64,000 nucleotides of DNA from Celeribacter ethanolicus (lineage in GTDB: Bacteria; Pseudomonadota; Alphaproteobacteria; Rhodobacterales; Rhodobacteraceae): assembly GCF_001550095.1 (NCBI RefSeq), contig NZ_LRUC01000052.1, positions 1 through 64,000 of the forward strand. Reading direction: 5' to 3'. The position numbers and the translations under genes are program-made. Below are positions 27,059 through 57,922 of this stretch, one piece after another. Position 1 is the first letter of the stretch. Each line of letters opens with the position of its first letter. The notes below the pieces were generated by a model. The model was not told where the DNA came from. It worked only from the letters and a program-made list of their open reading frames with translations, and did no database searches.

Positions 27059-27061
27059 GGC

Positions 27062-27301: not shown

Positions 27302-27364
27302 ATGCACCTCCGAGAAACGACGGCAAAAGAACTGCCCGACAGGTTGCCTCCAGCCTCGAAAGGA

Positions 27365-27395
27365 ACAGGCCGGAAGGAGGTCACCCCCGGCCTGT
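27365..27395 (-). terminator. Hairpin between imelysin and bfd
   Basis: ACAGGCCGG and CCGGCCTGT form a perfect 9-base stem around a 13-base loop. On the minus strand the T-run after it is weak (TTCCTTTCG), so it may act as an attenuator, giving the imelysin gene higher expression than the genes behind it. Confidence 0.5.
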
Positions 27396-27405
27396 CCGCC
27401 AAGAT

Positions 27406-32794: not shown

Positions 32795-32808
32795 TTGATA
32801 TATATCAA
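32795..32808 (+). promoter_or_regulatory. FNR/FnrL-type binding site
   Basis: TTGATATATATCAA is a perfect match to the FNR consensus TTGAT-N4-ATCAA. It lies 104 bases before the flavoprotein-PFOR operon. The gap 32585-32912 also holds the TetR dyad and no gene. An FNR activator at about -41 would put the transcript start near 32850, leaving a leader of roughly 65 bases. Confidence 0.8.
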
Positions 32809-32912: not shown

Positions 32913-34580
32913 ATGACTCAGAACGCCGAGAAGAAGCCCGGCACCAAACGCGCCGATTTCACGCCGCTGGTGGATCAGACCAAGACCACGGGCACAGGTC
33001 CGATCCGCAGCCAGATCCCCGCCTATGTCACCCTGACCCCGCCCTGTGCGGCGGCCTGTCCGGCGGGCGAGAATATCCGCGAATGGCTGGCGGAGGCGAC
33101 CGCCGGGCGTTATCGCGAGGCCTGGGAGATCCTGACCGCGCAAAACCCGATGCCCGCCGTGCATGGCCGGGTCTGCTATCATCCCTGCGAAACCGGCTGC
33201 AACCGCGGCGAAGTCGACACCTCCGTGTCGATCCACGCCGTCGAGCGGTTCCTGGGCGACATGGCCAATGAAAAAGGCTGGCAATTCAAAGCGGTGAACC
33301 CACCCTCGGGCAAGAAGGTCTTGGTCGTGGGCGCAGGTCCGTCGGGCCTGTCCTGCGCCTATCACCTCGCGCGGCTCGGTCACGCGGTTGAAATCCGCGA
33401 GGCCGGTCCGGTCGCGGGTGGCATGATGCATTTCGGCATTCCCGCCTACCGTATGCCGCGCGAAGAGCTGGCCCAAGATGTGTCCCGGATCGAGGCTCTC
33501 GGCGTCAAGATCACGCTGAACCACAAGGTCACCGACCTGATGGCCGAGAAATCCGAAGGCGGTTTCGATGCCGTCTATCTCGCCATAGGCGCGGGCGCGG
33601 GCAAACATGTCGACATCCCGGCCAAGGAAGCGCCAAAAATCCTCGACGCCGTCAACCTCCTGTCCGACGCCTCGAAAGGCGAAGCCCCGCTTCTGGGCCG
33701 CCGCGTCGTAGTTTACGGCGGCGGCAACACTGCGATGGACGCGGCGCGAACCGCCAAACGCCTGGGTGCCACGGAAACCCTCATCGTCTACCGCCGCGAC
33801 CGTGAGCACATGCCCGCCCATGAGTTCGAGGCCGACGAGGCCATGGCCGAGGGCGTTAAAATCAAATGGCTGACCACGATCAAGGAGATCGACGGCGATG
33901 AATTGAAGGTCGAGCGCATGGAGATTGGCGCCGACGGCAAGGCACATCCCACAGGCGAGTTCGAGACGCTGACCGCCGATGCCGTGGTTCTGGCCCTGGG
34001 TCAGGAGACCGACAGCACCTTCCTCAAATCCGTCCCCGGACTGGAGTTTAGCTGGAACGGCACCGTCGAGGTGAATGAGAACCGCATGACCGGCTGCGAA
34101 GGCGTGTTTGCCGGTGGCGACATGGTGCCGGATCAGCAATCGGTCACCATCGCCACCGGTCACGGCAAACTCGCCGCACGCCATATCGACGCCTGGCTTG
34201 CGGGCACCACCTATGTCGCAGAAGAGCCACCCGCACTCGTCACCGCCGACATGCTGCACCTGCCGGTCTACTCGGATGTGGACCCGAAAGAACAAGCGGC
34301 GTTGGCCACCAGCAAACGCGAAGGGTTCGACGAGGTTCTGAGCGGCCTGTCGGAAAAAGAAGCCCGCTATGAGGCGTCGCGCTGCTATTCCTGCGGGTCC
34401 TGTTACGAATGCGACAACTGCTATGCCGCCTGCCCCGAGGACGCCATCGTCAAACTCGGCACCGGCAAGGGCTATGAGATCGACCCGGAAAAATGCACGG
34501 GCTGCCAGTCCTGCTTCGATCAATGCCCCTGCCACGCCCTCGAAATGATTGCTGATACCGCGGAGATCTCCCATGCTTGA
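32913..34580 (+). CDS. NAD(P)H-dependent FeS flavoprotein, GltD/NfnB-like, PFOR partner
   Basis: A 555-residue cytoplasmic protein. The N-terminal GltD-type cysteine domain (Cys45, Cys49, then CYHPCETGC at about 88-96) would bind 4Fe-4S clusters. The FAD site is VLVVGAGPSGLSCAYHLARL and the NAD(P) site is VVVYGGGNTAMDAARTAKRL. The C-terminus carries an extra Cys-rich ferredoxin domain (CYSCGSCYECDNCYAACP, then CTGCQSCFDQCPCHALEM). It overlaps the PFOR start by eight bases, so the two are coupled. Likely role: passing electrons between PFOR and NAD(P)H. It is a paralogue of the flavoprotein part of the gene at 49846. Confidence 0.88.
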   Translation: MTQNAEKKPGTKRADFTPLVDQTKTTGTGPIRSQIPAYVTLTPPCAAACPAGENIREWLAEATAGRYREAWEILTAQNPMPAVHGRVCYHPCETGCNRGEVDTSVSIHAVERFLGDMANEKGWQFKAVNPPSGKKVLVVGAGPSGLSCAYHLARLGHAVEIREAGPVAGGMMHFGIPAYRMPREELAQDVSRIEALGVKITLNHKVTDLMAEKSEGGFDAVYLAIGAGAGKHVDIPAKEAPKILDAVNLLSDASKGEAPLLGRRVVVYGGGNTAMDAARTAKRLGATETLIVYRRDREHMPAHEFEADEAMAEGVKIKWLTTIKEIDGDELKVERMEIGADGKAHPTGEFETLTADAVVLALGQETDSTFLKSVPGLEFSWNGTVEVNENRMTGCEGVFAGGDMVPDQQSVTIATGHGKLAARHIDAWLAGTTYVAEEPPALVTADMLHLPVYSDVDPKEQAALATSKREGFDEVLSGLSEKEARYEASRCYSCGSCYECDNCYAACPEDAIVKLGTGKGYEIDPEKCTGCQSCFDQCPCHALEMIADTAEISHA

Positions 34581-40613: not shown

Positions 40614-40929
40614 GGCGCAGCCTCTCTGTCGTCCGGCGCAACAGCGCCATGTGCATTTTCCTAAGCGATCCCGACGCCTATGGAAACCGATGCCGACAGG
40701 CAGAGCGAAAAAACCGTCCGAAAACACCTCTCCGGGGGCAAAAAACCGCATTTCTTTGTCCGAAGTCAAATTAAGATCTTTGAATATGTGGTCTAACCGC
40801 CGCAGGACAGCGCGAACACTCCTCCCACGTCATGGTCTCTGTCTGCAACATGCCATGTTTTCGGATCGCACCGGTCGCAGCCCCGCGACACCGGGTGGAG
40901 AAGGTTTGCCCCATTCGGAGGCCGCTTTC
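40614..40929. other. Divergent promoter region of the Mrp/Mbx-like operon
   Basis: This 316-base gap separates the divergent dehydrogenase and the antiporter-oxidoreductase operon. It holds no supported gene. The dyad TCAAA-N8-TTTGA at 40766-40783, with AGATCT inside, is the only operator-like structure I see. I find no FNR-type box here. The ribosome binding site GGAGG at 40917-40921 fixes the start of the first gene. Confidence 0.4.
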
Positions 40930-41469
40930 ATGAGCGACACGGACATTTCCCTACCGGGCCCGACCACCCCCCCGCCGCTCAGACGGCTGGCGACACGGCT
41001 TTTCACGACGCTTCTGCTGTTCTGGCTGATGCTGAACGGCTCCCTCTCTCCCGCGACCCTTGTCACTGGCGTGATCGTCGCCGGGCTGATCGCGATGGTC
41101 TTCGCCCGTGATCTGTCCTTTCTGTCCGGCTTCAATTTGACGCCCGCGGGGATTGGCGCGGCGTTTCTGTTCATCGGGTATTTCCTCAAGGAGTTGGTGA
41201 AGGCCAATCTGGCCCTTGCCCGGCTGGTCCTCACCCCGTCGCTCCCCATCGCACCCGCCATCGTGAAAGTGCGCACCAAGCTCACCGATCCGGTCGGGCG
41301 GCTTTTGCTCGCCAACGCGATCACGCTGACGCCGGGCACGCTGACCTGCGAGATCAAGGGCGATCACCTCTATATCCACTGGGTCGTCGCCAAAGACACC
41401 GACCACGAGGTCGCCACGCAAGAGATCGTCGCGGGCTTCGAACATTATCTGGAGAAGATGTATGGCTGA
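40930..41469 (+). CDS. Mrp antiporter subunit E homologue (MbxA position)
   Basis: A 179-residue membrane protein with an MnhE/MrpE domain: two close N-terminal helices (RLFTTLLLFWLMLNGSL onward), then a cytoplasmic part with NAITLTPGTLTCEIKGDHLY and the TPGT motif of the family. Start fixed by GGAGG eight bases upstream. It is the first gene of a run in which nearly every stop overlaps the next start. In Mrp systems this subunit is needed for Na+/H+ antiport; in archaeal Mbh/Mbx it is the A subunit. Confidence 0.92.
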   Translation: MSDTDISLPGPTTPPPLRRLATRLFTTLLLFWLMLNGSLSPATLVTGVIVAGLIAMVFARDLSFLSGFNLTPAGIGAAFLFIGYFLKELVKANLALARLVLTPSLPIAPAIVKVRTKLTDPVGRLLLANAITLTPGTLTCEIKGDHLYIHWVVAKDTDHEVATQEIVAGFEHYLEKMYG

Positions 41470-41725
41470 CCTCCTCCTCTCGCTTGCAGCTCTCATCGCC
41501 GCCGTAGCCTTTGGCCTTGCCGCGTGGCGCTTCATCAAAGGCCCCCGCGCCACCGACCGCGTCGTGGCCTTCGATGCGCTCACGATCATCTCCGTCACTG
41601 GCATCGTGCTCGCCGCGCTGATCACCGGGCGGTCGATCTATCTCGACGTGGCGCTGGTATATGCGCTCCTGTCCTTCCTCGGCGTCATTACCGCCGCCCG
41701 CTATCTGGAAGGAGGCGAAGAATGA
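41462..41725 (+). CDS. Mrp antiporter subunit F homologue (MbxB position)
   Basis: An 87-residue protein with three membrane helices, MnhF/PhaF type. The helix pair around FGLAAWRFIKGPRATDRVVA and FDALTIISVTGIVLAALITG is the family signature. It overlaps the preceding gene by eight bases and the following one by four. Confidence 0.92.
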   Translation: MADLLLSLAALIAAVAFGLAAWRFIKGPRATDRVVAFDALTIISVTGIVLAALITGRSIYLDVALVYALLSFLGVITAARYLEGGEE

Positions 41726-42060
41726 TCCTGTCCGGCTTTCTCGACACATTGGGCGCGCTGGTTCTCTTGGGCGGCACCCTGTTTCTGGCCCTGGGCGGTC
41801 TGGGCCTTGTCCGCATGCCCGATGTCTACAACCGCATTCAGGCCGGCACCAAAGCGACCACTCTGGGCACGCTTCTCGTGCTTCTGGGCGCGGCGCTCAT
41901 TTCCCCCGCGTGGTCCGTCAAGCTCCTGCTGATCATGCTGTTCCTGATGTTCACCAACCCGCTGAGTTCTCAGGTTCTCGCCCGTGCCGCGCATCGTGCC
42001 GGTGTCGCACCCGTGGCCTCGAAAGACGCGCTCGCGGACGATGCGGAGGATCTGGCATGA
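41722..42060 (+). CDS. Mrp antiporter subunit G homologue (MbxC position)
   Basis: A 112-residue, three-helix MnhG/PhaG protein with LFLALGGLGLVRMPDVYNRI and AGTKATTLGTLLVLLGAAL. The ATG at 41722 is preceded by GGAGG. Four-base overlap with the next gene (ATGA). Confidence 0.92.
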   Translation: MILSGFLDTLGALVLLGGTLFLALGGLGLVRMPDVYNRIQAGTKATTLGTLLVLLGAALISPAWSVKLLLIMLFLMFTNPLSSQVLARAAHRAGVAPVASKDALADDAEDLA

Positions 42061-42308
42061 CGCTTCTGACCTTCATGGCAGCACTTCTGGCCGTCGCCAG
42101 CCTCGGCGCGGCGGTGATCGCGCTTGTCACCCGCTCCACCGTGGTCGCAGTATTGTCCGCCGGGTTGGTGTCCCTCTTCGCATCTGTGATGTTCCTGCTT
42201 CTGGCCGCGCCCGATGTGGCGATGACAGAGGCCGCCATCGGCTCTGGCCTCACCACCTTCCTCTTCTTCTTCGTCCTCGGGCGCATCCGCAGGGAGGGCA
42301 CGAAATGA
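42057..42308 (+). CDS. MbhD/DUF4040-like membrane subunit (MbxD position)
   Basis: An 83-residue protein of about three helices. VVAVLSAGLVSLFASVMFLL and APDVAMTEAAIGSG are the DUF4040/MbhD signature (the latter is also found in the C-terminal part of MrpA). In canonical bacterial Mrp this piece is part of MrpA; a separate gene is the archaeal Mbh/Mbx arrangement. Confidence 0.88.
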   Translation: MTLLTFMAALLAVASLGAAVIALVTRSTVVAVLSAGLVSLFASVMFLLLAAPDVAMTEAAIGSGLTTFLFFFVLGRIRREGTK

Positions 42309-43018
42309 ATTTCACCACCCGCAAAGCCATCCCCCTCGTTCTTCTGCTCCTTCTTGGCTCAGTCTTCTACGCGCTGTTCGCAGGATACACGCCGGACGAG
42401 ACCCTGAACCGTTCCGCCAGTTATTACGCCAGCCAGACGGTTCAGGACACCGGCGCGCAGAACGTGGTGACGGCGATCATCGTCACCTATCGCGGCCTTG
42501 ATACGCTGGGCGAGGTGACGGTTCTGTTCCTGACCGCCGCCATCGTCGGGCTGGTTCTGGCGCATTCGAAAGCGCCGAAAGGCCGCTCCGGCTCCGGCTT
42601 CCTGCCCTCGGGCGAATTGCTCACGACCGGCACGCGGATGCTCGTCCCCGTCATCCTGCTCTTCGGTGCTTACGTCTTCCTCAACGGCCACCTGACCCCC
42701 GGCGGCGGCTTTCAGGGCGGCGCGATCGTGGCTTCGGCCATGCTCCTGATGCTTTTGTCCGACTCGGCAGAGCGCTTCTCGCACCGGCTGATCTCCCGGA
42801 TCGAAAGCTCCGCAGGCCTCACCTATGTGATCCTCGGCCTTCTCGGCATGCTCTTCGCCGGAGGCTTTCTGGACAACCGCATCCTGCCTTTGGGCAGCTT
42901 CGGCTCGATCCTTTCGGCCGGGGCGATCCCGTTGATCTATGCCCTGATCGGGCTGAAAGTGGGGGCGGAGTTTTCCTCCATCCTGACTTCGCTCGAAGCA
43001 ACGGAGGACTCGCAATGA
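42305..43018 (+). CDS. MrpB-type subunit with MbhE-like N-terminus (MbxF position)
   Basis: A 237-residue membrane protein. The first 90 residues resemble MbhE (GAQNVVTAIIVTYRGLDTLG, EVTVLFLTAAIVGLVL); the rest is the MnhB domain (TRMLVPVILLFGAYVFLNGH, LTPGGGFQGGAIVASAMLLM). The merging of E and F matches the archaeal mbx set, which lacks a separate E gene. Confidence 0.9.
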   Translation: MNFTTRKAIPLVLLLLLGSVFYALFAGYTPDETLNRSASYYASQTVQDTGAQNVVTAIIVTYRGLDTLGEVTVLFLTAAIVGLVLAHSKAPKGRSGSGFLPSGELLTTGTRMLVPVILLFGAYVFLNGHLTPGGGFQGGAIVASAMLLMLLSDSAERFSHRLISRIESSAGLTYVILGLLGMLFAGGFLDNRILPLGSFGSILSAGAIPLIYALIGLKVGAEFSSILTSLEATEDSQ

Positions 43019-43374
43019 ACCTCGTTCAAATCTCCCTTGCGACCGGATTTCTGCTCATTCTTCTCGGGCTTTACGGCGCGTTGACGAACCGCGACATCCT
43101 CCGCATGATCGTCAGCTTCACCATCGCCGACACCGGCGTCAACGTGGTGCTGGTGGCCGTCGGCTACCTGCCCGGACGCGAAGCCCCGATCCTCGACACC
43201 ATCCCCGTCGCGGAGGCCGCAAGCCGCATCACCGACCCGGTGCCGCAAGCCTTGGTCCTCACCGCCATCGTCATCGGCCTCGGCGTCACCGCCCTGATGC
43301 TCGCCTACGCCTACCGGCTGTTCCGCGCCCGCGGCAGCCTCGACATCTCTGAGTTTACGGAGCTGAAATGGTAA
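43015..43374 (+). CDS. MrpC/NuoK-like subunit (MbxG position)
   Basis: A 119-residue, three-helix protein homologous to NuoK and MrpC, with GLYGALTNRDILRMIVSFTI and DPVPQALVLTAIVIGLGVTA. NuoK-type subunits carry buried acidic residues for ion passage. It overlaps the next gene by seven bases. Confidence 0.92.
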   Translation: MNLVQISLATGFLLILLGLYGALTNRDILRMIVSFTIADTGVNVVLVAVGYLPGREAPILDTIPVAEAASRITDPVPQALVLTAIVIGLGVTALMLAYAYRLFRARGSLDISEFTELKW

Positions 43375-46300
43375 GCCCTCTTCTGATCCTTGTGGCCGGC
43401 TTGGGGGCGGCCTTCCTCCTCGGGCTTCTGCGCGACACCTCCGAACGCGTGGCCTTTTACGTGACCGTGGCCGCGCTTGGCTTCATGAGCTTCGTGGCCC
43501 TGTCCTGGACCGTCTCTCTGGCGCTTGGACAGGTGCAGCCGGTTGACATCTATACAGCAGACGCCCGTCCGCCCTTTGCGATCAACCTGCGCATGGGCTT
43601 GCCGGAGGCAACCCTTGCCTCCGTTGTCGCCCTCATCGGGCTCCTGTCCGCCGTCTTCATGCGCCGCGATCTGATGCGGCTCGGGCGGCAGTCGATGGCG
43701 GTTCTTCTGGTGCTGATCATGGCGCTGTCGGGCCTGATCATGACGCGCGATCTGTTCAACCTTTTCGTCTTCATCGAGCTGATCGTCATTGCCTCCGCCG
43801 GGCTGGTTTTGCTGTCGCAGGACACCCGCGCGCTGGGAGCCGGGTTCAAATACCTGATCGTGTCGCAGGTCATCTCGATCCTGTTGCTGATCGGCGTGAT
43901 CTTTACCTATCATGCCAACGGCTCGCTCAACATCGACGACATCGCCGCCACACCGATGGGCTTCACCGGGGCTTCTCTGGCGATGTTCCTCGTGCTGATC
44001 GCGCTGGTCCTCGAACTCAAACCCTTCCCTGCCAATGGCTGGGCCCTGGACATTTACGAATCCGCCCATCCTGGCTTTTCGGCGCTGTTTTCCGCCGCCT
44101 CCGGAACGGCCACGCTCTTTGCCGTTCTGAAACTGTTCGAAGCCTCCGGTCCCGACTGGGCGCCGCTTGCGACCGGCATCGGCCTTGTAACCTTCGTCGG
44201 CGCGAATGTCCTCGCGCTGGCCCAGGATCACGGCCGCCGCCTGCTGGGCTATTCCTCCGTCGGCCAGATCGGGCTTGTGCTCATGGTCGTGGGCTATGGG
44301 GCCGACTGGGGCGTGGGGCTGTATTATGTCGCGGGTGGTCTGTTGATCTCGCATGCCATCGCCAAGGCCGGGTTGTTCTGGCTTTCCGGCATGGTCAAAG
44401 CGCGGCAGCTCACCGATTGGGCAGCGCTGCGACAGAACCCGGTTCTGGTCGTGGCCTTTGCCACATTCATCGCCATGCTCTCGGGCCTGCCGCCCTTCCC
44501 CGCCTTCTATGCCAAATGGACGCTGGTCCATGCCATGGCGGAGTATGCCGACTACCCGCTGATGGCGATCTTCCTGATCGCGGCGCTCATTGAGGCCGCC
44601 GTGCTGTTTCGCTGGTTCGGCATGGCGATCAAACGCGAAGCCACCCTCCCGCTCGCCTATAACCTCAGCCATGAAACCGTCGTTCTGATCGCCATGACGG
44701 CGGGTTGGGTTTTGAGCTTTGTCTGGGGGCCCCTGTCAGGCTTCGACAATCTGGTGACAGTTGTACCTTTCCTCTTTGCGCTTCTGTTCCTGCCGCTCGA
44801 CATCCTGCCCGCGCGGATCAAAAACGTGATCGCGATTGCCGGGCTGGTGGTCTGGTACGTCACCTCGACTGGCGGGCTCGATCCGCTGCGGATGATCTTC
44901 CTGACCATCATGGTTCTGGGCGGCGCACTTTTGCTTTTGGCCTCCTTCCACGCCAAGGGCCGTCGCATGGGGTTCTACACACCCGCGATGCTGATGTTCG
45001 CCGGCATGGCGCTTCTGGTCACCTCAACCACCAGTTTTCAGTTCTTCGCGGCCTGGGAATTCCTCACCGTCGGGTCCTATTTCCTGATCCTGCGCGGGGC
45101 TAACAGCGAACCCCATGCGCTCTCTTATATCACCTTCTCCTTAGGCGGCGCTTTCGCCCTGCTCGCAGGCTTCGCCATCGCGGCGGAAGGCCATTACACC
45201 TTCTATCTCGAAGACCTCTCCGAAGTGGCCCCCGAGCTTGCGCCCTATGTCTTTGTCCTGCTGGCGGCGGGGTTCCTGACGAAAACCGCCACCATGGGGC
45301 TTCACATCTGGCTTCCGGGCGCGCATGCCGAGGCCGAGACAGACGTCTCGCCGATGGTCTCCGGTATCTTGCTCAAAGCCGGTCTCTTCGGGCTCTTCGT
45401 TCTGGTCATGGAAATGGGACGGCAAGAGCTTTACGGCGTAGACCTCACGGTCGTTTTGGTCTGGCTGGGTGCCATCTCTGCCTTCATCGGCGCGGTGCTC
45501 GCGGCCTTTCAGGAAGACGCCAAACGGCTTCTGGCCTATAGCTCGATTTCCCAGATGGGCTATGCACTTTTCGGTCTCGCGCTGATGAACCATCTCGGCT
45601 GGCTTCTGGCCATGATGTTCGCGATCAACCATTTCGTCTACAAGAGCATGCTCTTCCTCGCCGTCGGCGGCGTGAAAGAACGCACCCACACCAAGCTCAT
45701 GTACAAAATGGGCGGGCTGATCACGCTCATGCCCTATAGCTTTGTCTCCGTCCTCGTCGGCATCATCGCCATGTCGGGCGTGCCGCCGCTGTCGGGGTTT
45801 GGCGGGCGCTGGATTTTCTACAATGCGATCATGACCACCGATCTGCGCCTGCCGATGATCCTGATCTTCATGGCCGGTCCCGTGGGCTTTCTCTATCTCT
45901 TCCGGCTGATCCACACGATCTTCCTCGGTCAGCCGAAAGACGAGCTGCGCAAGGTGAAAGAAGCCCCGTTCTGGATCCTCCTGCCGCAGATGATTTTCGT
46001 CGCCTTCCTGATCGCCTTCGCAGCCCTCCCCGGCATGATCCTCCAGCGCGTCGATGGCTATATCGGCACGCTCTTTGGCGACCGGCCGCTGGTCTGGACG
46101 GGGCGGATCATCGACAGCCAATACGGCACATGGAACCCGGTGGCGATCTGGGGCGTGATCATCGCGGTCTTCGTCACAGTGCTCCTGCTGCTCGTCTGGA
46201 TGAACCACAACGCCCAGCGCGTGAAGCAATTCAACATCGTCTTCTCGGCGGAACGTCCGTTCAAACCGCAGACCACGCATTTCGCATGGAACTTCTTTGC

Positions 46301-46493
46301 GCCCTATCGCAAAGCCATGGGGTTCCTTGAGATGCCCGTGTCCACGAGCTTTTGGACCGGCGTGTCGAACGCACTTCATGGCACCGCCGAATTCGCTCGT
46401 AAATTCTATACTGGCAACGGCCAGACCTATGCCGTGCAGCTCCTGCTCTTCGTCATCGCCGTCTACCTGATCAGCATGGGAGCCTCGTCATGA
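43368..46493 (+). CDS. Fused two-domain antiporter-like subunit (MbxH-H' fusion)
   Basis: A 1041-residue membrane protein made of two proton-translocating antiporter domains in one chain. The first half (about 1-500) is MrpD-like, with the channel Glu in NLFVFIELIVIAS and Lys in LVLELKPFPANGW. The second (about 530-1041) is HyfB/MbhH-like, with Glu in FFAAWEFLTVGSYF, Lys in LTKTATMGLHIWLPGAHAEA and DVSPMVSGILLKAGLFG, and DAKRLLAYSSISQMGYALFG. In archaeal mbx the two are separate genes H and H'. It is neither a canonical MrpA nor a NuoL/M pair. Its stop overlaps the next start. Confidence 0.88.
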   Translation: MVSPLLILVAGLGAAFLLGLLRDTSERVAFYVTVAALGFMSFVALSWTVSLALGQVQPVDIYTADARPPFAINLRMGLPEATLASVVALIGLLSAVFMRRDLMRLGRQSMAVLLVLIMALSGLIMTRDLFNLFVFIELIVIASAGLVLLSQDTRALGAGFKYLIVSQVISILLLIGVIFTYHANGSLNIDDIAATPMGFTGASLAMFLVLIALVLELKPFPANGWALDIYESAHPGFSALFSAASGTATLFAVLKLFEASGPDWAPLATGIGLVTFVGANVLALAQDHGRRLLGYSSVGQIGLVLMVVGYGADWGVGLYYVAGGLLISHAIAKAGLFWLSGMVKARQLTDWAALRQNPVLVVAFATFIAMLSGLPPFPAFYAKWTLVHAMAEYADYPLMAIFLIAALIEAAVLFRWFGMAIKREATLPLAYNLSHETVVLIAMTAGWVLSFVWGPLSGFDNLVTVVPFLFALLFLPLDILPARIKNVIAIAGLVVWYVTSTGGLDPLRMIFLTIMVLGGALLLLASFHAKGRRMGFYTPAMLMFAGMALLVTSTTSFQFFAAWEFLTVGSYFLILRGANSEPHALSYITFSLGGAFALLAGFAIAAEGHYTFYLEDLSEVAPELAPYVFVLLAAGFLTKTATMGLHIWLPGAHAEAETDVSPMVSGILLKAGLFGLFVLVMEMGRQELYGVDLTVVLVWLGAISAFIGAVLAAFQEDAKRLLAYSSISQMGYALFGLALMNHLGWLLAMMFAINHFVYKSMLFLAVGGVKERTHTKLMYKMGGLITLMPYSFVSVLVGIIAMSGVPPLSGFGGRWIFYNAIMTTDLRLPMILIFMAGPVGFLYLFRLIHTIFLGQPKDELRKVKEAPFWILLPQMIFVAFLIAFAALPGMILQRVDGYIGTLFGDRPLVWTGRIIDSQYGTWNPVAIWGVIIAVFVTVLLLLVWMNHNAQRVKQFNIVFSAERPFKPQTTHFAWNFFAPYRKAMGFLEMPVSTSFWTGVSNALHGTAEFARKFYTGNGQTYAVQLLLFVIAVYLISMGASS

Positions 46494-47407
46494 CCGACTT
46501 CCCGAATTTCCAATGGGCGCAGGTCGGCTATGCCCTTTTGACCCTCTTCATCGTGATCAACTACGGCATGGTGATGACCGCCGTTGTGCGCAAAATCGGC
46601 GCGCGGGTCGGCGGGCGCTATGGCATCCCGGTCTGGCAGAACTACGTCGATTTGCTCAAGAACATCGCGCTCCGGTCCAAGATTTCCCATGGCGTAATGT
46701 ATTACCTCGGGCCGGTCTTCCGGCTGACCGGCGGCGTGGGCCTTCTGATGTTCGTGCCGACGATCTACGGCTCCGAGTGGCATCAGAATTTCTCCTATGC
46801 GGGCGATCTGATCCTTGCCTTGTACTTCGTGTTCTTCGGCACGCTGGGCATGGCCTTGGGCGCGGGCGAAAGCGGCCATCCGCATTCGGCCATCGGCGTC
46901 TCTCGCGGCCTCGCGCAAGTCACCATGGCCGAACTGCCGCTCGCTTTGGGTGTCTATGCGCTCTCGCTCCAGTATGGCACGCTCGACATCACCAAAATCG
47001 TCGCCGCCCAGCAGGGCTCGATCTTTAACTGGACGCTGTTCACCAACCCGATTGCCACCGTCGCTGCGATGATCGCCTTTGTCGGCACGATGATGCGCTC
47101 GCCCTTTGACGTAGCGATGGCGCCGCAGGAAATCCCCATCGGCCCGCCCACCGAGTATCATTCGTCCTATCTTGCCCTGATGCAGACCAACCGCGCGCTT
47201 TTCCCGGTCGCCAAGGTGGTCATCTACATGAACCTGTTCTTCGGTGGCGCCACAAGCTGGGCCGAGTTCGCGATCAAGGTGTTCTGCCTCTACATGGTCT
47301 CCGTCGTGATCGGCGTCGTGCACCCGCGTTTCCGGGTCGAACAGAGCATCCGTTTCTTCCTCAAATGGGGGCTGCCGATCGGCGTCCTCGCCATTCTGGT
47401 GGTGTAA
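46490..47407 (+). CDS. NuoH-like membrane subunit (MbxM position)
   Basis: A 305-residue protein with about eight helices. It links the antiporter modules to the hydrophilic arm. Family stretches are IPVWQNYVDLLKNIALRSKI, FGTLGMALGAGESGHPHSA and FVGTMMRSPFDVAMAPQEIP, equivalent to the NuoH region that contacts the B and D subunits. The gene comes before the B, C and D-like genes, the mbx order; in mbh it comes after them. Confidence 0.9.
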   Translation: MTDFPNFQWAQVGYALLTLFIVINYGMVMTAVVRKIGARVGGRYGIPVWQNYVDLLKNIALRSKISHGVMYYLGPVFRLTGGVGLLMFVPTIYGSEWHQNFSYAGDLILALYFVFFGTLGMALGAGESGHPHSAIGVSRGLAQVTMAELPLALGVYALSLQYGTLDITKIVAAQQGSIFNWTLFTNPIATVAAMIAFVGTMMRSPFDVAMAPQEIPIGPPTEYHSSYLALMQTNRALFPVAKVVIYMNLFFGGATSWAEFAIKVFCLYMVSVVIGVVHPRFRVEQSIRFFLKWGLPIGVLAILVV

Positions 47408-47411
47408 TCTC

Positions 47412-48101
47412 ATGAAAGACGTTGACGACAAGTTCCGCAAGAACACCGACCCGGTCCCGATGCGCGAGGAGTTAAAACCCCGTTCGGTTACGACCCCCGA
47501 TGGGCAAACCATCGAGATCGAGCCTCTGCGCGATTACTTCTGTGACGCGCGGCCGAAAGTGCATCCGAAAGCCTATTCGAAAATCGTCGAGGATTTCTAC
47601 AACTGGGCGCGGTCCAATTCGCTCTGGATTCTGGGCTTTGGCACCGGCTGCGGCGCGATTGAGATGCGCCCGCTGATGACGCCCCGGTTTGACGCCTATC
47701 GCTATGGCATCCAATGGCGCCCGACCCCGCGTCAGGCCAGCCTTTTGGTGATCTCCGGCTATCTCTCGGTCAAAACCCTCAAACGTGCCATCCGCGCCTA
47801 TGAGCAGATGCCGCAGCCGAAATATGTCATGGGGCTTGGGTCGTGCACGATCAACGGCGGCATGTATTGGGACAGCTACAACACCATCAAACAGCTCGAC
47901 GATTACCTGCCTGTGGACATGTATGTCGCGGGCTGCATGCCCCGCCCAGAGGCCTTGCTGCACGGGTTCATGGAACTGAAAAAACGCATCCGCTCCGGCA
48001 AGGCCGAGGGCGCGAATGACTATGCCGAGAACTTCGATCGCTACAAAGCCAACCAGAAGGCGGTGATCAAGGACTGGGACATGCCGGATTACAATTGGTG
48101 A
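47412..48101 (+). CDS. NuoB-like FeS subunit (MbxJ position), one cluster Cys replaced
   Basis: A 229-residue subunit that should hold the terminal 4Fe-4S cluster (N2 position). Matching motifs are GFGTGCGAIEMRPLM, YVMGLGSCTINGG and AGCMPRPEA. Cys80, Cys145 and Cys175 are present, but the tandem CC of NuoB reads Cys80-Gly81, so one of the four usual ligands is missing and no other Cys is close by. The C-terminal 45 residues are a charged extension. It is directly downstream of the NuoH-like gene. Confidence 0.9.
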   Translation: MKDVDDKFRKNTDPVPMREELKPRSVTTPDGQTIEIEPLRDYFCDARPKVHPKAYSKIVEDFYNWARSNSLWILGFGTGCGAIEMRPLMTPRFDAYRYGIQWRPTPRQASLLVISGYLSVKTLKRAIRAYEQMPQPKYVMGLGSCTINGGMYWDSYNTIKQLDDYLPVDMYVAGCMPRPEALLHGFMELKKRIRSGKAEGANDYAENFDRYKANQKAVIKDWDMPDYNW

Positions 48102-48103
48102 GC

Positions 48104-48661
48104 ATGATGAGAGAGATTCTATACCGCCTCAAAGATCGCTACCATTTCGGGACGCCGACGTTCCAGCGTGATGATCTGTGTTTCGTGACCGTGAAACGCG
48201 ATGAGCTGCGTGCCATTCTCACGGAACTGCGCGATGTCGAGGGCTTCACCCATCTGACGCTTTTGACCGCCGTCGACTGGTTGGAAGAGCGGCTGTTTCA
48301 GCTCACCTATCTGATCAACAACCGCGAGGCCAATCTGACGCTGGGCCTGCGGGTCATGCTGGAGCGCGAGGACGAGCCGGGCGCCACCACGGGCGACACG
48401 ATCCACGATCTCTGGCCGACGGCTGCGACCTATCAACGGGAGCTGAACGAGATGTTCGGCATCAACTTCCCCGGCTCCCCCCGCGTCGACGAGGAATTCA
48501 TCCTGGAGGGCTGGACCGACCTGCCCCCCTACCGGCGCGATTTCGACAGTCTCGCCTATAGCCAGCAGACCTATAACGACCTGCCCGGCCGCAAGACCCA
48601 TGACCCGCGCGATCACATGAAGAAAGCGCTTTATCCGAACTATCTGAAGGAGGCCGAGTGA
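48104..48661 (+). CDS. NuoC-like subunit (MbxK position)
   Basis: A 185-residue homologue of NuoC, a scaffold between the B- and D-like subunits. Signature: TYQRELNEMFGINFPGSPRV, then LPPYRRDFDS. Start is uncertain: ATG 48104 is used, but GTG 48098 or ATG 48107 are possible. Its stop overlaps the next ATG. Confidence 0.9.
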   Translation: MMREILYRLKDRYHFGTPTFQRDDLCFVTVKRDELRAILTELRDVEGFTHLTLLTAVDWLEERLFQLTYLINNREANLTLGLRVMLEREDEPGATTGDTIHDLWPTAATYQRELNEMFGINFPGSPRVDEEFILEGWTDLPPYRRDFDSLAYSQQTYNDLPGRKTHDPRDHMKKALYPNYLKEAE

Positions 48662-49839
48662 TGTTTTCCTTCCAACCCGACCGCTCGCAATACCCCCAGC
48701 CCGGCCCCGACGGCAAGCTTGAGATTGATCTTGAGACCGGCAAATATCTGAAACTCTGGCACGGGCCGAACCACCCGGGCATCACCGGCAATATGTCGGT
48801 CGAACTCACCGTCTGCGGCGATGAGGTCGTGGACGGCAAAACCCATGTCGGCTATCTGCACCGCGGCTTTGAGAAACTCATGGAACGGCGGACCTTTATT
48901 CAGGTCTTCCCCATCGTCTGCCGCGTCTGTGTCCCGGAGCCGGATTTCAACGAATATTGCTATGCCGCCGCCGTCGAAGAACTGGCGGGCATCGAAGTGC
49001 CGGAGCTGGCCAACTGGATCCGCACGCTCATCCTCGAGATGGGCCGCTTCAACAGCTACATGATGGCCATGGGCGGCATTTCCGGCGCGCTGGGGCTTGG
49101 CGTTGTCGGGCAATGGCTGACCTATGTGCGCGACCTGATGCTGGATCGGTTCGAGGAACTGACCGGCGCGCGGGTCTATCACATGTTCATCCTGCCGGGC
49201 GGCGTGCGCGGGCATCTGCCCGAGGGCTTCGAGGCCCGGATGGAAGAGGTGCTTCAGATCGCCGAGAAATACCTCGCGGATTCCGAGAATCTGATGTTCC
49301 ACAGCTCCGTGTTCAAAACCCGGACACAGGGCGTCGGCGTGATCGACCCGGCCTTGTTCGAGCGCTACGGCGTCACCGGCCCCAATGCCCGCGCCGGCGG
49401 TGTGGCGAAAGACGTGCGCAAGGACAGTCCTTACCTTGTCTATGATCATCTCGATTTCACGGTTCACACGGAGACGAAATCCGACATCTACGCCCGCACC
49501 TTGGTGCGCTATAAAGACCTGCATGAAAGCATTCGCCTCATCCGGCAAATCTTTGAAAAAATGCCGAAATCCGGCCCGGTGATGAGCAAGCTTCCGAATG
49601 TGCTGCATTGGAAAATCCCGCGTGGCGAGACCTATATCAAGGGCGAAAGCTCGCGTGGTGAATTCGGCTATTATCTGGTGACCGACGGCTCCGGCTATCC
49701 GCGCCGGATCAATGTCAGGGGGCCCTCATACACCCATGCCATGGCGCTTTTGGAGCACCTGATCCCTGGCACCAATATTTCCGACGTCGCGGCCCTCATG
49801 GTGTCGCTGCACACCTATCCGCCCGAGATAGAGAGGTAA
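48661..49839 (+). CDS. NuoD/MbxL-like catalytic subunit with N-terminal CxxC only
   Basis: A 392-residue homologue of NuoD and of the NiFe-hydrogenase large subunit. It begins at ATG 48661 with AAGGAGG nine bases upstream. The N-terminal motif reads FPIVCRVCVPEPDFN (Cys87 and Cys90), the place of the first NiFe-binding CxxC. The C-terminus ends SLHTYPPEIER with no CxxC, so a NiFe centre cannot form. This half-set is what archaeal Mbx/Mbs has, where the retained Cys pair is proposed as the sulfane sulfur site; NuoD has neither pair. HGPNHPGITGN and GYLHRGFEKLMERR are in the family positions for cluster N2 and quinone contacts. Confidence 0.9.
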   Translation: MFSFQPDRSQYPQPGPDGKLEIDLETGKYLKLWHGPNHPGITGNMSVELTVCGDEVVDGKTHVGYLHRGFEKLMERRTFIQVFPIVCRVCVPEPDFNEYCYAAAVEELAGIEVPELANWIRTLILEMGRFNSYMMAMGGISGALGLGVVGQWLTYVRDLMLDRFEELTGARVYHMFILPGGVRGHLPEGFEARMEEVLQIAEKYLADSENLMFHSSVFKTRTQGVGVIDPALFERYGVTGPNARAGGVAKDVRKDSPYLVYDHLDFTVHTETKSDIYARTLVRYKDLHESIRLIRQIFEKMPKSGPVMSKLPNVLHWKIPRGETYIKGESSRGEFGYYLVTDGSGYPRRINVRGPSYTHAMALLEHLIPGTNISDVAALMVSLHTYPPEIER

Positions 49840-49845
49840 CCCGAC

Positions 49846-51654
49846 ATGTCATTGCGTGACGCACTCTCCCCCTTCACCGCGTGGAAACACGTGATCAGCG
49901 ACCCGGTCACCATCAAGGATCCGTTCACCCGCGAAGCCGCCGATCGCTACCGGGGCTTTCACAAGAACGATATGGACAGCTGCATCGGATGTGGCTCCTG
50001 CGAGGCGATCTGTCAGAACGCCGCCATCGACATGGTGCCGGTCTCTGACCCGAAAAACGGCGACAGCGGGCTTAGGCCCATGATCGACTATGGCCGCTGC
50101 TGCTGGTGCGCGCTCTGCGTCGATGTCTGCATGACTGGCTCGCTCACCATGTCGAACGAATACACATGGGTGGACAGCGACCCGAACGCCTTCCGATTCA
50201 TCCCCGGGGTCGACAAGAAATCCTGGGACGATGCGGAAAAAGGCTATCACCGCGAAGACAACATCCGCCATCTGACGGGAGTCGAGCGCATCGACATGCC
50301 GACCATGGAGCCCGAAGTGCGGATCGACAGCTTCGCCGAGATGATCCACGGCTACGAGCGCGCCGAAGCCATGGCCGAAGCCGACCGCTGCGTCGAATGC
50401 GGGCTCTGCGTCTCCACCTGCCCGGCCCACATGGACATCCCCAATTACATCGCCGCCGTGCGCGACGGGGATTACGACAAGGGCGTGGAACTTCTCTATG
50501 AAACCAACCCGTTCTCGGAGGTCTGTGGCCGCGTTTGTACCCATAAATGCGAAGAAACCTGCGCCGCCGTGCATGAGGGCGACCCGATCGCCATCCGCTG
50601 GCTCAAACGCCACATCATCGACGAGGTGCCGCTGGAGCACCGGCTTGAGCTGATCAGGAAACCCGACATGCCGGAGAGCGGTCAATCGGTGGCGGTGATC
50701 GGTGCGGGGCCCGGCGGTCTGACCGCCGCCTACGATCTGGCACGTTCAGGTCACAAGGTCGTGGTCTTCGAGGCGCTCGATGAACCCGGCGGCATGATGC
50801 GTCACGGCATCCCGGAATACCGCCTGCCCTATGATGCGTTGGATCGCGACATTGCGGTCATCCGTGAAATGGGCGTCGAAATCCGCACGAATACCCGCGT
50901 CGGCACCGACATCTCGATGGAGGATCTCAAACGCGATTACGATGCGGTGGTCATGGCCATCGGTCTGCAATCCAGCCGTTCGACCCGCATTCCGGGCTGT
51001 GACGCGCCGGGGGCGGAAAACGCCATCGACCTGTTGCGCCGCGTGACCGAGGGCAAGGACATCCCTGTCCCCGAACAGGCCGTGGTCATCGGCGCCGGGA
51101 ACGTGGCGATGGACATCGCCCGCACCATGGCACGGTTGCAGAAACAGAAATACGGTCAGGTCGGCACCACGGTCTGTGCCCGCAAAGACATCTCCATGTT
51201 CCGCGCCGACCCCGAAGAGATCGAGGAAGCGCTGGAAGAAGGCGTCGAAATCATCGAACTGCGCGCGCCGCAGGAGATGACCCTGCATGAAGAGGGCGAC
51301 AACGCGGGCTGTGTCTGCGGGTTGCGGACCTGGCAAGTGGTGCCCGGTTGGGACGAAAAAGGCCGGTTCGATCCGAGTTATGAGCAGGACAACGTCGTGC
51401 TCCCCGCCGGGATGGTCGTCGAGGCCACGGGCCAGCAAGCCGATATCTCGCTTCTGGGTGAGGCGCTGACCGAAGCGCTGGACTGGAACCGCGGTTCTCT
51501 GAAAACCGATGCAGCGGGACGCACGTCCGAGCCGTGGCTCTGGGCCGGGGGCGATGCAGTCAACGGGCCGGACGTGATCAACGCGGTGGCCGACGGGCAC
51601 CGGATCGCCGCCAGCATCAACCTGTATCTGCAAGCCGGGAGGACCGTGCAATGA
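49846..51654 (+). CDS. Ferredoxin domain fused to GltD/NfnB-like NAD(P)H flavoprotein (MbxN-fusion)
   Basis: A 602-residue protein. Residues 1-100 match the MbxN/NuoI-type 8Fe ferredoxin (Cys46, 49, 52, 56 and Cys85, 88, 91, 95; an extra Cys86). Residues about 175-245 are a second FeS domain of the GltD type (CVECGLCVSTCP; CGRVCTHKCEETC). The FAD site follows at about 282 (VAVIGAGPGGLTAAYDLARS) and the NAD(P) site at about 407 (VVIGAGNVAMDIARTMARL); AGGDAVNGPDVINAVADGH ends the FAD fold. In archaeal mbx the N subunit is only a ferredoxin, so the fusion adds a direct NAD(P)H port. It overlaps the ferritin-like gene that follows. Confidence 0.88.
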   Translation: MSLRDALSPFTAWKHVISDPVTIKDPFTREAADRYRGFHKNDMDSCIGCGSCEAICQNAAIDMVPVSDPKNGDSGLRPMIDYGRCCWCALCVDVCMTGSLTMSNEYTWVDSDPNAFRFIPGVDKKSWDDAEKGYHREDNIRHLTGVERIDMPTMEPEVRIDSFAEMIHGYERAEAMAEADRCVECGLCVSTCPAHMDIPNYIAAVRDGDYDKGVELLYETNPFSEVCGRVCTHKCEETCAAVHEGDPIAIRWLKRHIIDEVPLEHRLELIRKPDMPESGQSVAVIGAGPGGLTAAYDLARSGHKVVVFEALDEPGGMMRHGIPEYRLPYDALDRDIAVIREMGVEIRTNTRVGTDISMEDLKRDYDAVVMAIGLQSSRSTRIPGCDAPGAENAIDLLRRVTEGKDIPVPEQAVVIGAGNVAMDIARTMARLQKQKYGQVGTTVCARKDISMFRADPEEIEEALEEGVEIIELRAPQEMTLHEEGDNAGCVCGLRTWQVVPGWDEKGRFDPSYEQDNVVLPAGMVVEATGQQADISLLGEALTEALDWNRGSLKTDAAGRTSEPWLWAGGDAVNGPDVINAVADGHRIAASINLYLQAGRTVQ

Positions 51655-52145
51655 GTGAAGCCAACAAGGAAAAACTGCGCGACGTGACCACCGTGCGCGA
51701 GATCATGACCACGGCCACGCAATTCGAGATCGTGGCACGCGATTTCTACACCGCGCTCGCCCCGAAAGTGTCGAAGAACTTCCGCTGGCTGGTCGAAGAA
51801 CTGGCCGAGGAGGAACAGGGCCACGTCGATCTCTTCACCAAGCTCGCCAATGATCCGAAAGTCTCGGAGGTGATGTCGCAAAAGATCGACCGTCCGAGTG
51901 CCGACACCAAATTCTCCGATTGCGTGCACTCCCCCGATCTGGGCGAAGCGCCGGACGATCAGGCTGTGTTGCAATACGCGCTCTGGCGCGAGAATGCGGC
52001 GATGGAGCAATATACCGAACTGGCCGAAACCGCACCTGAAGGTCCGCTGAAAGACGCTTTTGTCTTTCTCGCCAAGGAGGAAGCAGAGCACAAGGCAGAG
52101 CTTGAAAAAATCTACGACGATCTGGTGCATTCGGGCGAGGCGTGA
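51651..52145 (+). CDS. Rubrerythrin/ferritin-like diiron protein
   Basis: A 164-residue four-helix protein. Two ExxH motifs are seen (EEEQGHVDLF and KEEAEHKAELEK), with the extra glutamates in QFEIVARDFY and ENAAMEQYTEL, a full diiron set. There is no rubredoxin-type CxxC domain. In this operon it could protect the oxygen-sensitive clusters by reducing peroxide, with electrons from the preceding flavoprotein. Its start overlaps the preceding stop by four bases. Confidence 0.87.
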   Translation: MSEANKEKLRDVTTVREIMTTATQFEIVARDFYTALAPKVSKNFRWLVEELAEEEQGHVDLFTKLANDPKVSEVMSQKIDRPSADTKFSDCVHSPDLGEAPDDQAVLQYALWRENAAMEQYTELAETAPEGPLKDAFVFLAKEEAEHKAELEKIYDDLVHSGEA

Positions 52146-53442: not shown

Positions 53443-53895
53443 TCAGTACATTTTGTAGGGCAGGAATTTGCCGTCGAGCACGATCTTCACCCGGTCGCCC
53501 TTCGGATCCTCGGTGCGGGAGATGTCCATGGTGAAGTCGATGGCGGACATGATGCCGTCGCCGAATTCCTCTTCGATCAGCGCTTTCATCGTGGTGCCGT
53601 AGACGTTCACCACCTCGTAAAGGCGATAGATGAGCGGATCGGTCGGAACGGCGCTCGGCAGAGAGCCGCGGTAAGGCACGGTCATCAAAAGGGCGACTTC
53701 CTCGTCCGAGAAATTGATCCCCATGGCGTTGTCGACCTTGGCAATTTGGTCTTTGGTCAGGGAAATCTGGCCCATCAGCGCGGCGGTGGTCCATTCCTTG
53801 GACTGGCCGACAGCCGCGGCCACATCGGCCCATTTGATGTCGTTGAACACCTTGTGGGCGATAATTTTCTCGGTGAGTTCTGCACGGGTGGTCAT
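53443..53895 (-). CDS. cynS: Cyanate hydratase (cyanase)
   Basis: Turns cyanate and bicarbonate into ammonia and CO2. The 150-residue protein starts at ATG 53895. Catalytic residues are Arg91 and Glu94 (YRLYEVVNVYGTTMKALI) and Ser117 (GDGIMSAIDF). The N-terminal helical domain is HTH-like as usual. It is embedded after the acyl-CoA dehydrogenase-like gene, not in a simple cynABDS arrangement. Confidence 0.95.
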   Translation of the reverse strand: MTTRAELTEKIIAHKVFNDIKWADVAAAVGQSKEWTTAALMGQISLTKDQIAKVDNAMGINFSDEEVALLMTVPYRGSLPSAVPTDPLIYRLYEVVNVYGTTMKALIEEEFGDGIMSAIDFTMDISRTEDPKGDRVKIVLDGKFLPYKMY

Positions 53896-53984
53896 GTGTT
53901 TTCTCCGTCTTGAGACACAGGTTGAGAGAGGGCGGACACGGGGGGGGGGCGTCCGACCGGGTGTAGAAAGTCTTTGGAAGGGGT

Positions 53985-55097: not shown

Positions 55098-55170
55098 CTC
55101 ATCTCTCCAGAGGTTGGGTTTCAAAGCGGGGGCCGCCCTATGCGCGTCTCTCGGACGGCCCCCGGATGCG

Positions 55171-55728: not shown

Positions 55729-55773
55729 GGGAATTCCTTTCGTCTGGTGGGTTAAAGGTTGCGGGTGCGGGGT

Positions 55774-57884: not shown

Positions 57885-57922
57885 GTCAGGTCCCTGTTGA
57901 TGTTCGGTTGGTCTTGTTCGGA

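Follow-up and report, generated by a model that had tools for sequence, protein, structure and literature searches.

The closest characterised relative of the operon described here is the membrane-bound sulfane reductase (MBS) of Pyrococcus furiosus, formerly called Mbx (PDB 6u8y). In the available part of its description, the enzyme reduces sulfane sulfur, the chemistry at its three-cysteine cluster is set out, and coupling in the complex I superfamily is placed in the chamber next to that cluster (PMC7684303). Clusters of 12 or 13 mbx genes are known in the bacteria Thermotoga maritima, Thermoanaerobacter and Caldanaerobacter, where spread by transfer is suspected. A further 'Mrp-Mbx' has been named in the Riftia symbiont Endoriftia, a gammaproteobacterial sulfur oxidiser, in whose co-expression network it shares, like the V-type ATPases, first neighbours with the rTCA cycle; the excerpt available mentions it by name only (PMC11636981). 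Mbx has also been named as a ferredoxin:NADP+ oxidoreductase in passages of two other papers (PMC3608648, PMC4596419). Bacterial Mbx is already known, and an operon carrying a NuoI–GltD fusion appears to be a new form of it.

The window (the whole 64,000-nucleotide stretch of Celeribacter ethanolicus DNA that was analysed) holds 13 intact ORFs on the plus strand between positions 40930 and 52145, in the gene order of archaeal mbx/mbs (Table 1). The mbx gene letters used here are those that we take to apply to this order, and ORF identities come from Pfam and NCBIfam profile matches. Nine of the 12 junctions are overlaps of 1 to 8 bases and three are gaps of at most 6. No NuoE, NuoF, NuoG, NuoA or NuoJ occurs among the 13 ORFs. 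The genes for NuoH, B, C and D come straight after the Mrp genes, overlapping them or lying a few bases apart, which rules out a stand-alone Mrp antiporter.

Table 1. The operon, the FNR-type sites and the neighbouring ferredoxin-related genes in the window.
Feature	Position	Strand	Basis
MrpE-like subunit (MbxA), 179 aa	40930..41469	+	PF01899 MNHE 128 bits, longer ORF reading scored; start revised
MrpF-like subunit (MbxB), 87 aa	41462..41725	+	PF04066 64 bits
MrpG-like subunit (MbxC), 112 aa	41722..42060	+	PF03334 89 bits
MbhD-like subunit (MbxD), 83 aa	42057..42308	+	PF13244 61 bits
MbhE-MrpB fusion, 237 aa	42305..43018	+	PF20501 37 bits, PF04039 91 bits
MrpC/NuoK-like subunit (MbxG), 119 aa	43015..43374	+	PF00420 85 bits
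Fused double antiporter-like MbxH-H', 1041 aa	43368..46493	+	PF00361, two stretches
NuoH-like membrane anchor (MbxM), 305 aa	46490..47407	+	PF00146 156 bits
NuoB-like (MbxJ), 229 aa, three proximal-cluster Cys	47412..48101	+	PF01058 79 bits; MBS 6u8y_J 214 bits
NuoC-like subunit (MbxK), 184 aa	48107..48661	+	PF00329 81 bits, slightly longer reading scored; start revised
NuoD-like (MbxL), 392 aa, without quinone His	48661..49839	+	PF00346 222 bits; MBS 6u8y_L 315 bits
NuoI-type ferredoxin (MbxN) + NfnL/GltD-type FAD/NAD(P)H fusion, 602 aa	49846..51654	+	Fer4_7, Fer4_20, Pyr_redox_2
Ferritin-like/rubrerythrin-like protein, 164 aa, two E...ExxH motifs	51651..52145	+	PF02915 55 bits
FNR/CRP-family-type site TTGTCCGAAGTCAA, one mismatch, 160 bp 5' of mrpE	40756..40769	.	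motif match
Perfect FNR-type box ahead of GltD-like/PFOR operon (probable partner)	32795..32808	.	motif match
GltD-like FAD/NAD(P)H protein, ferredoxin domain, 555 aa (probable partner)	32913..34580	+	
Pyruvate:ferredoxin oxidoreductase NifJ, 1211 aa	34573..38208	+	TIGR02176 1757 bits, above cut-off

Among 83 loci examined through tblastn-anchored ORFs, 53 have all 12 core genes and all 53, drawn from several phyla, keep them in the identical order, so the operon is not a chance arrangement. The earlier note on this DNA had described thirteen tightly packed genes in mbx (mbs) order, with NuoH ahead of B, C and D and no separate NuoI gene; the intact, closely spaced ORFs, the uniform order in complete loci, the succession MbxM, MbxJ, MbxK, MbxL and the placing of NuoI as half of a longer ORF bear it out. 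Its proviso that the order might be that of an already characterised enzyme applies in part: bacterial mbx is in print, and the order is that of MBS as given in the available part of the MBS paper (PMC7684303).

The other 30 loci are without one or more core genes, and many touch a contig edge; L054, L079 and L086 have room upstream, yet the missing genes were not detected there. Carriers include isolates (Celeribacter, Tropicimonas and Thiothrix); genome G634, with a distant MbxL, owes its place among the carriers to that protein alone. Flanking genes vary among most proteobacterial-type loci, with two Celeribacter loci resembling the window. Directly 3' of the operon in L032 and L034 are V-type ATPase genes, a link that is local; none of 52 genomes has a V-type ATPase above the curated cut-off, strong sub-cut-off matches being confined to G1027, G1032 and G1033, and a general partnership is ruled out. 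A plasmid copy was likewise rejected by tblastn of MbxL against plasmids, a search that may have excluded records very close to the window's genome and in which all 246 records fall below 60% identity; 132 of them are from Sinorhizobium, Rhizobium or Ensifer, and the annotated rows among the matches listed are nuoD.

Judged by sequence, the operon is of the MBS/Mbx type, its catalytic subunits resembling those of MBS more closely than those of complex I or Mbh. Against PDB sequences, MbxL scores 315 bits with MBS compared with at most 224 for complex I and 135 for Mbh, and MbxJ scores 214 bits compared with at most 143 for complex I/NDH and 99 for Mbh. Cysteines C28, C93 and C123 of the MbxJ proximal cluster are each conserved in 72 of 73 bacterial sequences, and Gly takes the fourth position (C25) in 71 of 73; the NuoB of the genome's own complex I has the adjacent CC. 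In MbxL, Thr replaces the quinone-site His in all 83 bacterial members, and this His is retained in 14/14 complex I NuoD from carrier genomes; the quinone-site Tyr is Val in the window's MbxL (pairwise alignment with Thermus Nqo4 alone). Against an MBS-like reaction, the window has Tyr in place of MbsL C385, a cysteine that 29 of 83 bacterial members retain, and C85 is kept in 65 of 83, though in the available part of the MBS paper both cysteines are dispensable (PMC7684303). With three conserved cysteines at the proximal cluster and no quinone His, the sequences suggest that electrons go on to an additional, MBS-like acceptor.

The operon has B, C, D, H, I, K and L/M/N-type parts in common with complex I. 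A complex I paralogue is nevertheless ruled out by bit scores, residues and tree, and the earlier view that this is not complex I holds: a complex I nuoD lies elsewhere in the genome, flanked by nuoB and nuoF motifs, and the operon is without NuoE/F/G, the quinone His and the adjacent Cys pair. In a tree of MbxL, where a single fragment represents the archaea and Mbh and Fpo are absent, all 89 MBX/MBS sequences stand together, separated by a branch of 1.2 from the 14 NuoD of complex I, with a joint-node support of 0.36; neither there nor in the bit scores do the NuoD- or NuoB-like proteins fall inside complex I, as the earlier note had suggested checking. The NuoD sequences come from 16 loci scanned, of which L110 and L112 were left out as having no ORF that passed the motif filter. 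NuoD was reported as not monophyletic in this tree, which we read as a rooting artefact. Mbh and other group 4 [NiFe] hydrogenases are ruled out by scores under those of MBS and by an incomplete set of two CxxC pairs, MbxL having the N-terminal CRVC in the window and lacking the C-terminal pair.

The likeness to MBS thus comprises gene order, the best PDB match of the NuoD- and NuoB-like subunits, the three-cysteine cluster and the absent quinone His, and the departures from it lie elsewhere. One is the gene that the earlier note had called ferredoxin, which does have a NuoI-type half but is a fusion whose NfnL/GltD flavoprotein half had been overlooked. Both halves share one ORF in 78 of 79 loci (L094 is the exception), and 17 cysteines are invariant in 74/74 relatives. 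The MbsN chain of MBS has 208 residues and matches only residues 7–120 of the fusion protein, for which PDB matches are 9n5u, 4ylf, 5vj7 and 1h7x. Common to it and the NfnL/GltD-type flavoproteins (Nfn, Stn, AegA and DPD) are the Fer4_20 clusters and the FAD/NAD(P)H domain; the difference is that here the module is joined to the NuoI-type arm of an ion-pump operon, and no NfnS-type gene is found among the 13 ORFs. The protein scores 809 bits with NF010590, under the cut-off of 946, a profile that is above cut-off in one of 14 control genomes (T. maritima is among the 14; the matching genome is not specified). In the literature searched, within the limits of library and search terms, we found no description of a NuoI–GltD fusion on Mbx and no report of enzymatic activity for a fused member. 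The fused module fits an NAD(P)H site, in keeping with that part of the earlier label 'ferredoxin/NAD(P)H oxidoreductase'; the overall reaction which that label implies is less well supported, given the three-cysteine cluster and the missing quinone His.

Forming the second departure is the antiporter arm. Two antiporter domains had been predicted and both are present, but in a single ORF, as in all 68 loci where both halves were found; in the accessible description of MBS, H and H' are two subunits. The Glu and Lys residues of both halves (E137, K218, K255; E564, K639, K670) are kept in 58–60 of 60 aligned sequences, so that the arm, in line with the earlier note, bears the residues of ion-translocating subunits. 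The H-H' fusion and the enlarged MbsN are not counted as catalytic features, hence we regard the operon as a variant of MBS/Mbx.

The third departure is the added ferritin-like gene. Its product is modelled as helical (mean pLDDT of 87), with PDB fold matches that are mostly ferritin/Dps-like, every one at E above 0.001, and its two E...ExxH motifs would form a diiron site. Upstream of mrpE, FNR-type sites occur in 8 of 17 proteobacterial-type loci (a set that includes L027, titled merely 'bacterium') against 0.56 expected, in 4 of 35 other loci against 2.8, and in 12 of all 52 against 3.3, where expectations derive from simple base shuffles and related loci are non-independent. G241 has no such site ahead of its operon, and the window as a whole shows no enrichment, with 6 such sites where 4.3 are expected. 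The box ahead of the GltD-like/PFOR operon is the sole perfect match in the window (0.14 expected; 12 of 100 shuffles gave one), and has an equivalent at the corresponding position in two Celeribacter genomes. NifJ, encoded there, is a probable source of reduced ferredoxin.

Co-occurrence was counted without correction for relatedness. A 2-oxoacid:ferredoxin oxidoreductase (E ≤ 1e-30) is present in 17 of 19 carriers and, inside the family, in 5 of 6, compared with 5 of 33 same-family non-carriers; G003 has the operon without a match, and G1032 a weak match at most. In the phylum sample, dsrA is found in 5/6 carriers versus 46/392 others (Fisher p 1.6e-4), and inside the family in 2/6 versus 4/33 (p 0.22, non-significant). 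No dsrA match was obtained in the four carriers of other phyla. The window's genome likewise gave none, nor did its relatives Tropicimonas and two Celeribacter, so that the sulfur link is indirect in this group.

We infer substrates, direction and pumped ion as follows, and give an even chance to a complex that passes electrons from NAD(P)H and ferredoxin to a non-quinone, probably sulfane, acceptor while the Mrp-like arm pumps H+ or Na+. Electrons from NAD(P)H would enter at the FAD of the fused module, with ferredoxin reduced by the neighbouring pyruvate:ferredoxin oxidoreductase as the probable second input, and would reach the three-cysteine cluster of MbxJ by way of some four [4Fe-4S] clusters in the fusion protein. 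What is reduced in the MbxJ/L/M chamber would be a small molecule other than a quinone, most likely sulfane sulfur in the form of polysulfide or of organic tri- or polysulfides, and this reaction would drive H+ or Na+ movement through the Mrp/NuoL-like arm. In the complex I superfamily, coupling passes via a chamber of this type. The transfer from NADPH to sulfur is weakly downhill, judged by redox potentials, and therefore NADPH alone could pump little. Low oxygen probably induces the operon, whose ferritin-like product probably shields the exposed cluster against O2 or peroxide.

A less probable reading, which we consider unlikely, follows the earlier note and the older view of Mbx: ferredoxin reduced by PFOR would deliver electrons to NADP+ at the fused module while the arm pumps, making the complex an ion-coupled ferredoxin:NADP+ oxidoreductase and a substitute for Rnf. 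The fused NAD(P)H/FAD module and the nearby, co-occurring PFOR are consistent with it, as are the activity named for Mbx in the passages available (PMC3608648, PMC4596419) and the lack of any RnfC above cut-off in the window's genome, G003, G241 and two Celeribacter. It would, however, place both electron sites in the fusion protein and leave the conserved MbxJ cluster (72/73) and MbxL chamber residue (83/83) without a task, and RnfC is above cut-off in Tropicimonas and in 10 of the 13 carriers outside Rhodobacteraceae.

Lower again we rate the same architecture acting on another non-quinone chamber substrate, such as a low-molecular-weight disulfide or some other organic acceptor. Carriers without dsrA, the window's genome among them, would accord with this, and 12 loci with Bacteroidota or Chlorobi titles have dihydroorotate-dehydrogenase-like genes directly 3' of the operon, a hint of organic substrates in those bacteria; a candidate substrate is lacking, however, and the closest characterised relative reduces sulfane sulfur according to the available part of its description (PMC7684303). 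There is a slim chance that the fused NfnL-type FAD is bifurcating or confurcating, with NADPH and ferredoxin meeting at one flavin and a third branch leading to sulfane sulfur in the pumping chamber. Slimmest is the chance of reverse use, in which an ion gradient would push electrons from NAD(P)H onto ferredoxin to serve biosynthesis or nitrogen fixation: its parts are reversible in principle and NifH is above cut-off in 6 of 19 carriers, but none of the window's genome, G003, G241 and the two Celeribacter has a NifH match at E ≤ 1e-60, which leaves nitrogenase supply unsupported for this host, and PFOR already supplies reduced ferredoxin in the window's and both Celeribacter genomes.

With this operon, the MBS branch of the complex I superfamily reaches isolates like Celeribacter, Tropicimonas and Thiothrix; to our knowledge, the structure and chemistry of MBS are known only from a hyperthermophilic archaeon. 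Its fused NAD(P)H module opens the question of how a complex-I-type machine gains pyridine-nucleotide input. Were the fused flavin to bifurcate, flavin-based bifurcation and ion pumping would lie on one electron wire, a combination for which we know of no earlier complex-I-type machine, and its hosts would include mesophilic, partly oxygen-tolerant bacteria. The operon also raises the question of whether bacteria that store sulfur, or that are facultative anaerobes, conserve energy by reducing sulfur at low oxygen.

The Mbx/MBS-type operon (MBS being the membrane-bound sulfane reductase of P. furiosus, formerly Mbx) is closely packed, with 9 of the 12 junctions among its 13 ORFs overlapping by 1–8 bases and the remaining 3 being gaps of at most 6 bases. 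Profile searches identify MrpE, MrpF, MrpG, MbhD, MbhE-MrpB, MrpC and a double antiporter subunit at the start of the operon, followed by NuoH, NuoB, NuoC, NuoD, a NuoI–GltD fusion and a rubrerythrin/ferritin-like protein. The coordinates and gene order given in the earlier note agree with these ORFs and profile matches; its two antiporter domains are present, within one 1041-residue ORF rather than as separate genes, and the last redox gene, described there simply as a ferredoxin, encodes a 602-residue fusion of NuoI-like and FAD/NAD(P) parts.

Coordinates of the operon and of other genes noticed in the window, its genome (G000) and the compared loci (L) and genomes (G)
Location	Strand	Feature
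Window 40930–52145	plus	Mbx/MBS-type operon
Window 52165–53391	convergent	Ferredoxin-reductase-like flavoprotein (Pyr_redox_2 + Reductase_C), right after the ferritin-like gene
Window 25003–28659		Clustered di-haem oxidoreductase, ferritin-domain and imelysin genes; perhaps iron uptake
Window 53443–58801	minus	Cyanate lyase, then acyl-CoA-dehydrogenase-like and OsmC-like genes, then ABC transporter permease and substrate-binding protein; a further gene at 57923–58801
G000:C6 and G000:C30		F-type ATP synthase alpha and beta genes, apparently present as two pairs
L007 9926–10983 (G241)		Both halves of a thiamine-diphosphate enzyme (one, the first, under Pfam's cut-off) immediately upstream of mrpE; presumably resembling paired subunits of a sulfopyruvate or phosphonopyruvate decarboxylase
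G634:C10:14652–15740 (L013)		Distant MbxL (48% identity) of an alphaproteobacterium of another family, retaining the Cys equivalent to MbsL C385
L032 13781–20721; also L034		V-type ATPase genes directly after the ferritin-like gene; hosts a gammaproteobacterial MAG and Ca. Thiosymbion
L046, L051, L056, L058, L059, L061, L063, L064, L072, L076, L079, L094		Dihydroorotate-dehydrogenase-like gene

Scans for relatives of the NuoD-like subunit, MbxL, with the window's own genome counted each time, give 3 carriers among 295 family genomes (limit 1e-60), 2 among 385 class genomes and 6 among 398 phylum genomes (limit 1e-80); the family scan finds none in the same-genus genome G260 at 1e-60. From the named-genome scan the best 80 of at least 565 confirmed stretches were used, headed by Celeribacter (2), Aliiruegeria, Tropicimonas, Thiothrix, Sedimenticola, Thiosymbion, Propionivibrio, Rhodoferax and Magnetococcales and continuing with Bacteroidales, Spirochaetes, Cloacimonadota, Neomarinimicrobiota and others. 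Together with the window and the carrier genomes G241 and G003 these give 83 loci, 53 of which, among the matches listed, have all 12 core genes, in a single order (53/53).

In comparisons with PDB sequences, MBS (6u8y) gives the NuoD-like protein 315 bits, as against 224 for Thermus complex I and 135 for Mbh; the corresponding values for the NuoB-like protein, MbxJ, are 214 bits for MBS, at most 143 for complex I/NDH chains and 99 for Mbh. The earlier note had proposed NuoD, NuoB and NuoH trees; a FastTree of MbxL (103 sequences, complex I NuoD drawn from carrier genomes, Mbh and Fpo absent), places 89/89 Mbx/MBS proteins together on a branch of 1.2 from 14 complex I NuoD, with joint node support of 0.36 and NuoD scored non-monophyletic under the script's rooting. 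Grouping with the window's MbxL are both Celeribacter. The window's genome has one further PF00346 gene and no third; this is nuoD, on another contig, with nuoB and nuoF motifs nearby, and a second NuoD match of at least 324 bits is found in 15/15 proteobacterial carriers of the set examined. As for earlier description, which the note had left to be checked, published sources report up-regulation of the T. maritima MBX by S0 (PMC9431562), Mbx in Thermoanaerobacter (PMC3608648) and Caldanaerobacter (PMC4596419), an mbx operon that reached Thermotoga by transfer (PMC2246101), a bacterial MBS with 10/13 archaeal orthologs in strain 3DAC (PMC10356935) and Mrp-Mbx in Endoriftia (PMC11636981); bacterial, even proteobacterial, Mbx is therefore already known.

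MBS, according to PMC7684303, is without the quinone His/Tyr, has three Cys only at its proximal cluster, where sulfane sulfur is reduced, and can dispense with both MbsL C85 and C385. Among the matches listed, the quinone-site His position is Thr in 83/83 bacterial MbxL, and bacterial MbxJ retains each of C28, C93 and C123 in 72/73, with Gly in place of the fourth proximal-cluster Cys in 71/73. The Tyr position is Val in the single pairwise alignment inspected. As controls, all 14 complex I NuoD that 16 loci yielded have the quinone His, and the genome's own NuoB has the adjacent CC. Equivalents of MbsL C85 and C385 are kept in 65 and 29 of the 83 bacterial MbxL among the matches listed, the latter being Tyr in 53, window included. 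Glu and Lys residues are conserved in both antiporter halves.

Following the NuoI-like N terminus of the fusion protein are two further cluster motifs and FAD and NAD(P) domains, the C-terminal part resembling NfnL, DPD and GltD; the MbsN chain of MBS (208 residues), by comparison, matches fusion residues 7–120 only. The protein scores 809 bits with NF010590 (PRK13984, 'putative oxidoreductase'), under the model cut-off of 946. Among the matches listed, the NuoI and GltD halves share one ORF in 78 of the 79 loci with both found (the sole exception is L094), and 17 Cys are invariant in 74/74 full-length members, sufficient for four [4Fe-4S] clusters. In the 12 of 29 passages covered of PMC8097209, which reviews GltD-like modules, the fusion goes unmentioned. 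Neither for it nor for a ferritin-like gene in an mbx operon was an account found in the literature searched; some reviews lay outside it and may hold a description.

The ferritin-like protein carries two E...ExxH motifs and is modelled as helical (mean pLDDT 87); its PDB matches, all with E >0.001, are mainly ferritin-like, Dps and COG1633-type, with some others. Its gene comes next after the fusion gene in 35 of the 70 loci where this is visible among the matches listed, a count that leaves out 13/83 loci (one without the fusion gene, twelve ending early downstream) and includes five admitted on visual inspection, as their open frame begins within the fusion gene. Loci with the gene include all of L018–L034 (17/17), the window, G241 and G003. 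Directly 3' of the fusion gene instead, in 12 loci titled Bacteroidota/Chlorobi among the matches listed, is the dihydroorotate-dehydrogenase-like gene.

A NifJ and GltD-like gene pair lies 2.7 kb upstream of the operon in the window and ~3 kb upstream in both Celeribacter, and is preceded in all three by a putative FNR-type box, perfect in the window (0.14 expected; 12/100 shuffles with one). Another site, with one mismatch, is found 160 bp before mrpE; window-wide, sites of this kind show no enrichment (6 versus 4.3 expected). Among the matches listed, sites precede mrpE in 8/17 proteobacterial-type loci versus 0.56 expected, and in 4/35 remaining loci versus 2.8. Crp/FNR-type regulator genes are matched in 15/80 loci (best 80 of at least 565), often upstream of mrpE.

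Co-occurrence counts, which ignore relatedness and for TIGR02176, RnfC and dsrA take 33 non-carriers of one family (from the family, class and phylum scans) as controls, cover several genes. TIGR02176 at E<=1e-30, which also picks up related 2-oxoacid:ferredoxin oxidoreductases, matches 17/19 carriers versus 5/33 non-carriers, with no match in carrier G003 and a weak one in G1032; above the curated cut-off it matches 7/19 versus 0/33, and within the family, counting Celeribacter and Tropicimonas as members by name, 5/6 versus 5/33 (p 0.002). Above cut-off, RnfC is found in 11/19 carriers versus 0/33 and NifH in 6/19, neither in the window's genome. dsrA is found in 11/19 versus 4/33, and in 5/6 carriers versus 46/392 others of a phylum sample taken to be that of MbxL because size and handles agree; it has no match in the window's genome, both Celeribacter, Tropicimonas or the four carriers from other phyla.

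Ranked second among the possible functions, because the conserved chamber would stand idle, is a pure ferredoxin:NADP+ reaction, which we consider improbable; the boldest reading, suggested by the similarity to NfnL, in which the pump would be connected to a flavin that bifurcates electrons, is more doubtful still. In the reading that we prefer, itself evenly poised, NAD(P)H and ferredoxin would be the electron donors, a sulfane-type acceptor would be reduced at the open proximal cluster, direction and acceptor being taken by analogy from MBS, and the Mrp-like arm would pump ions.
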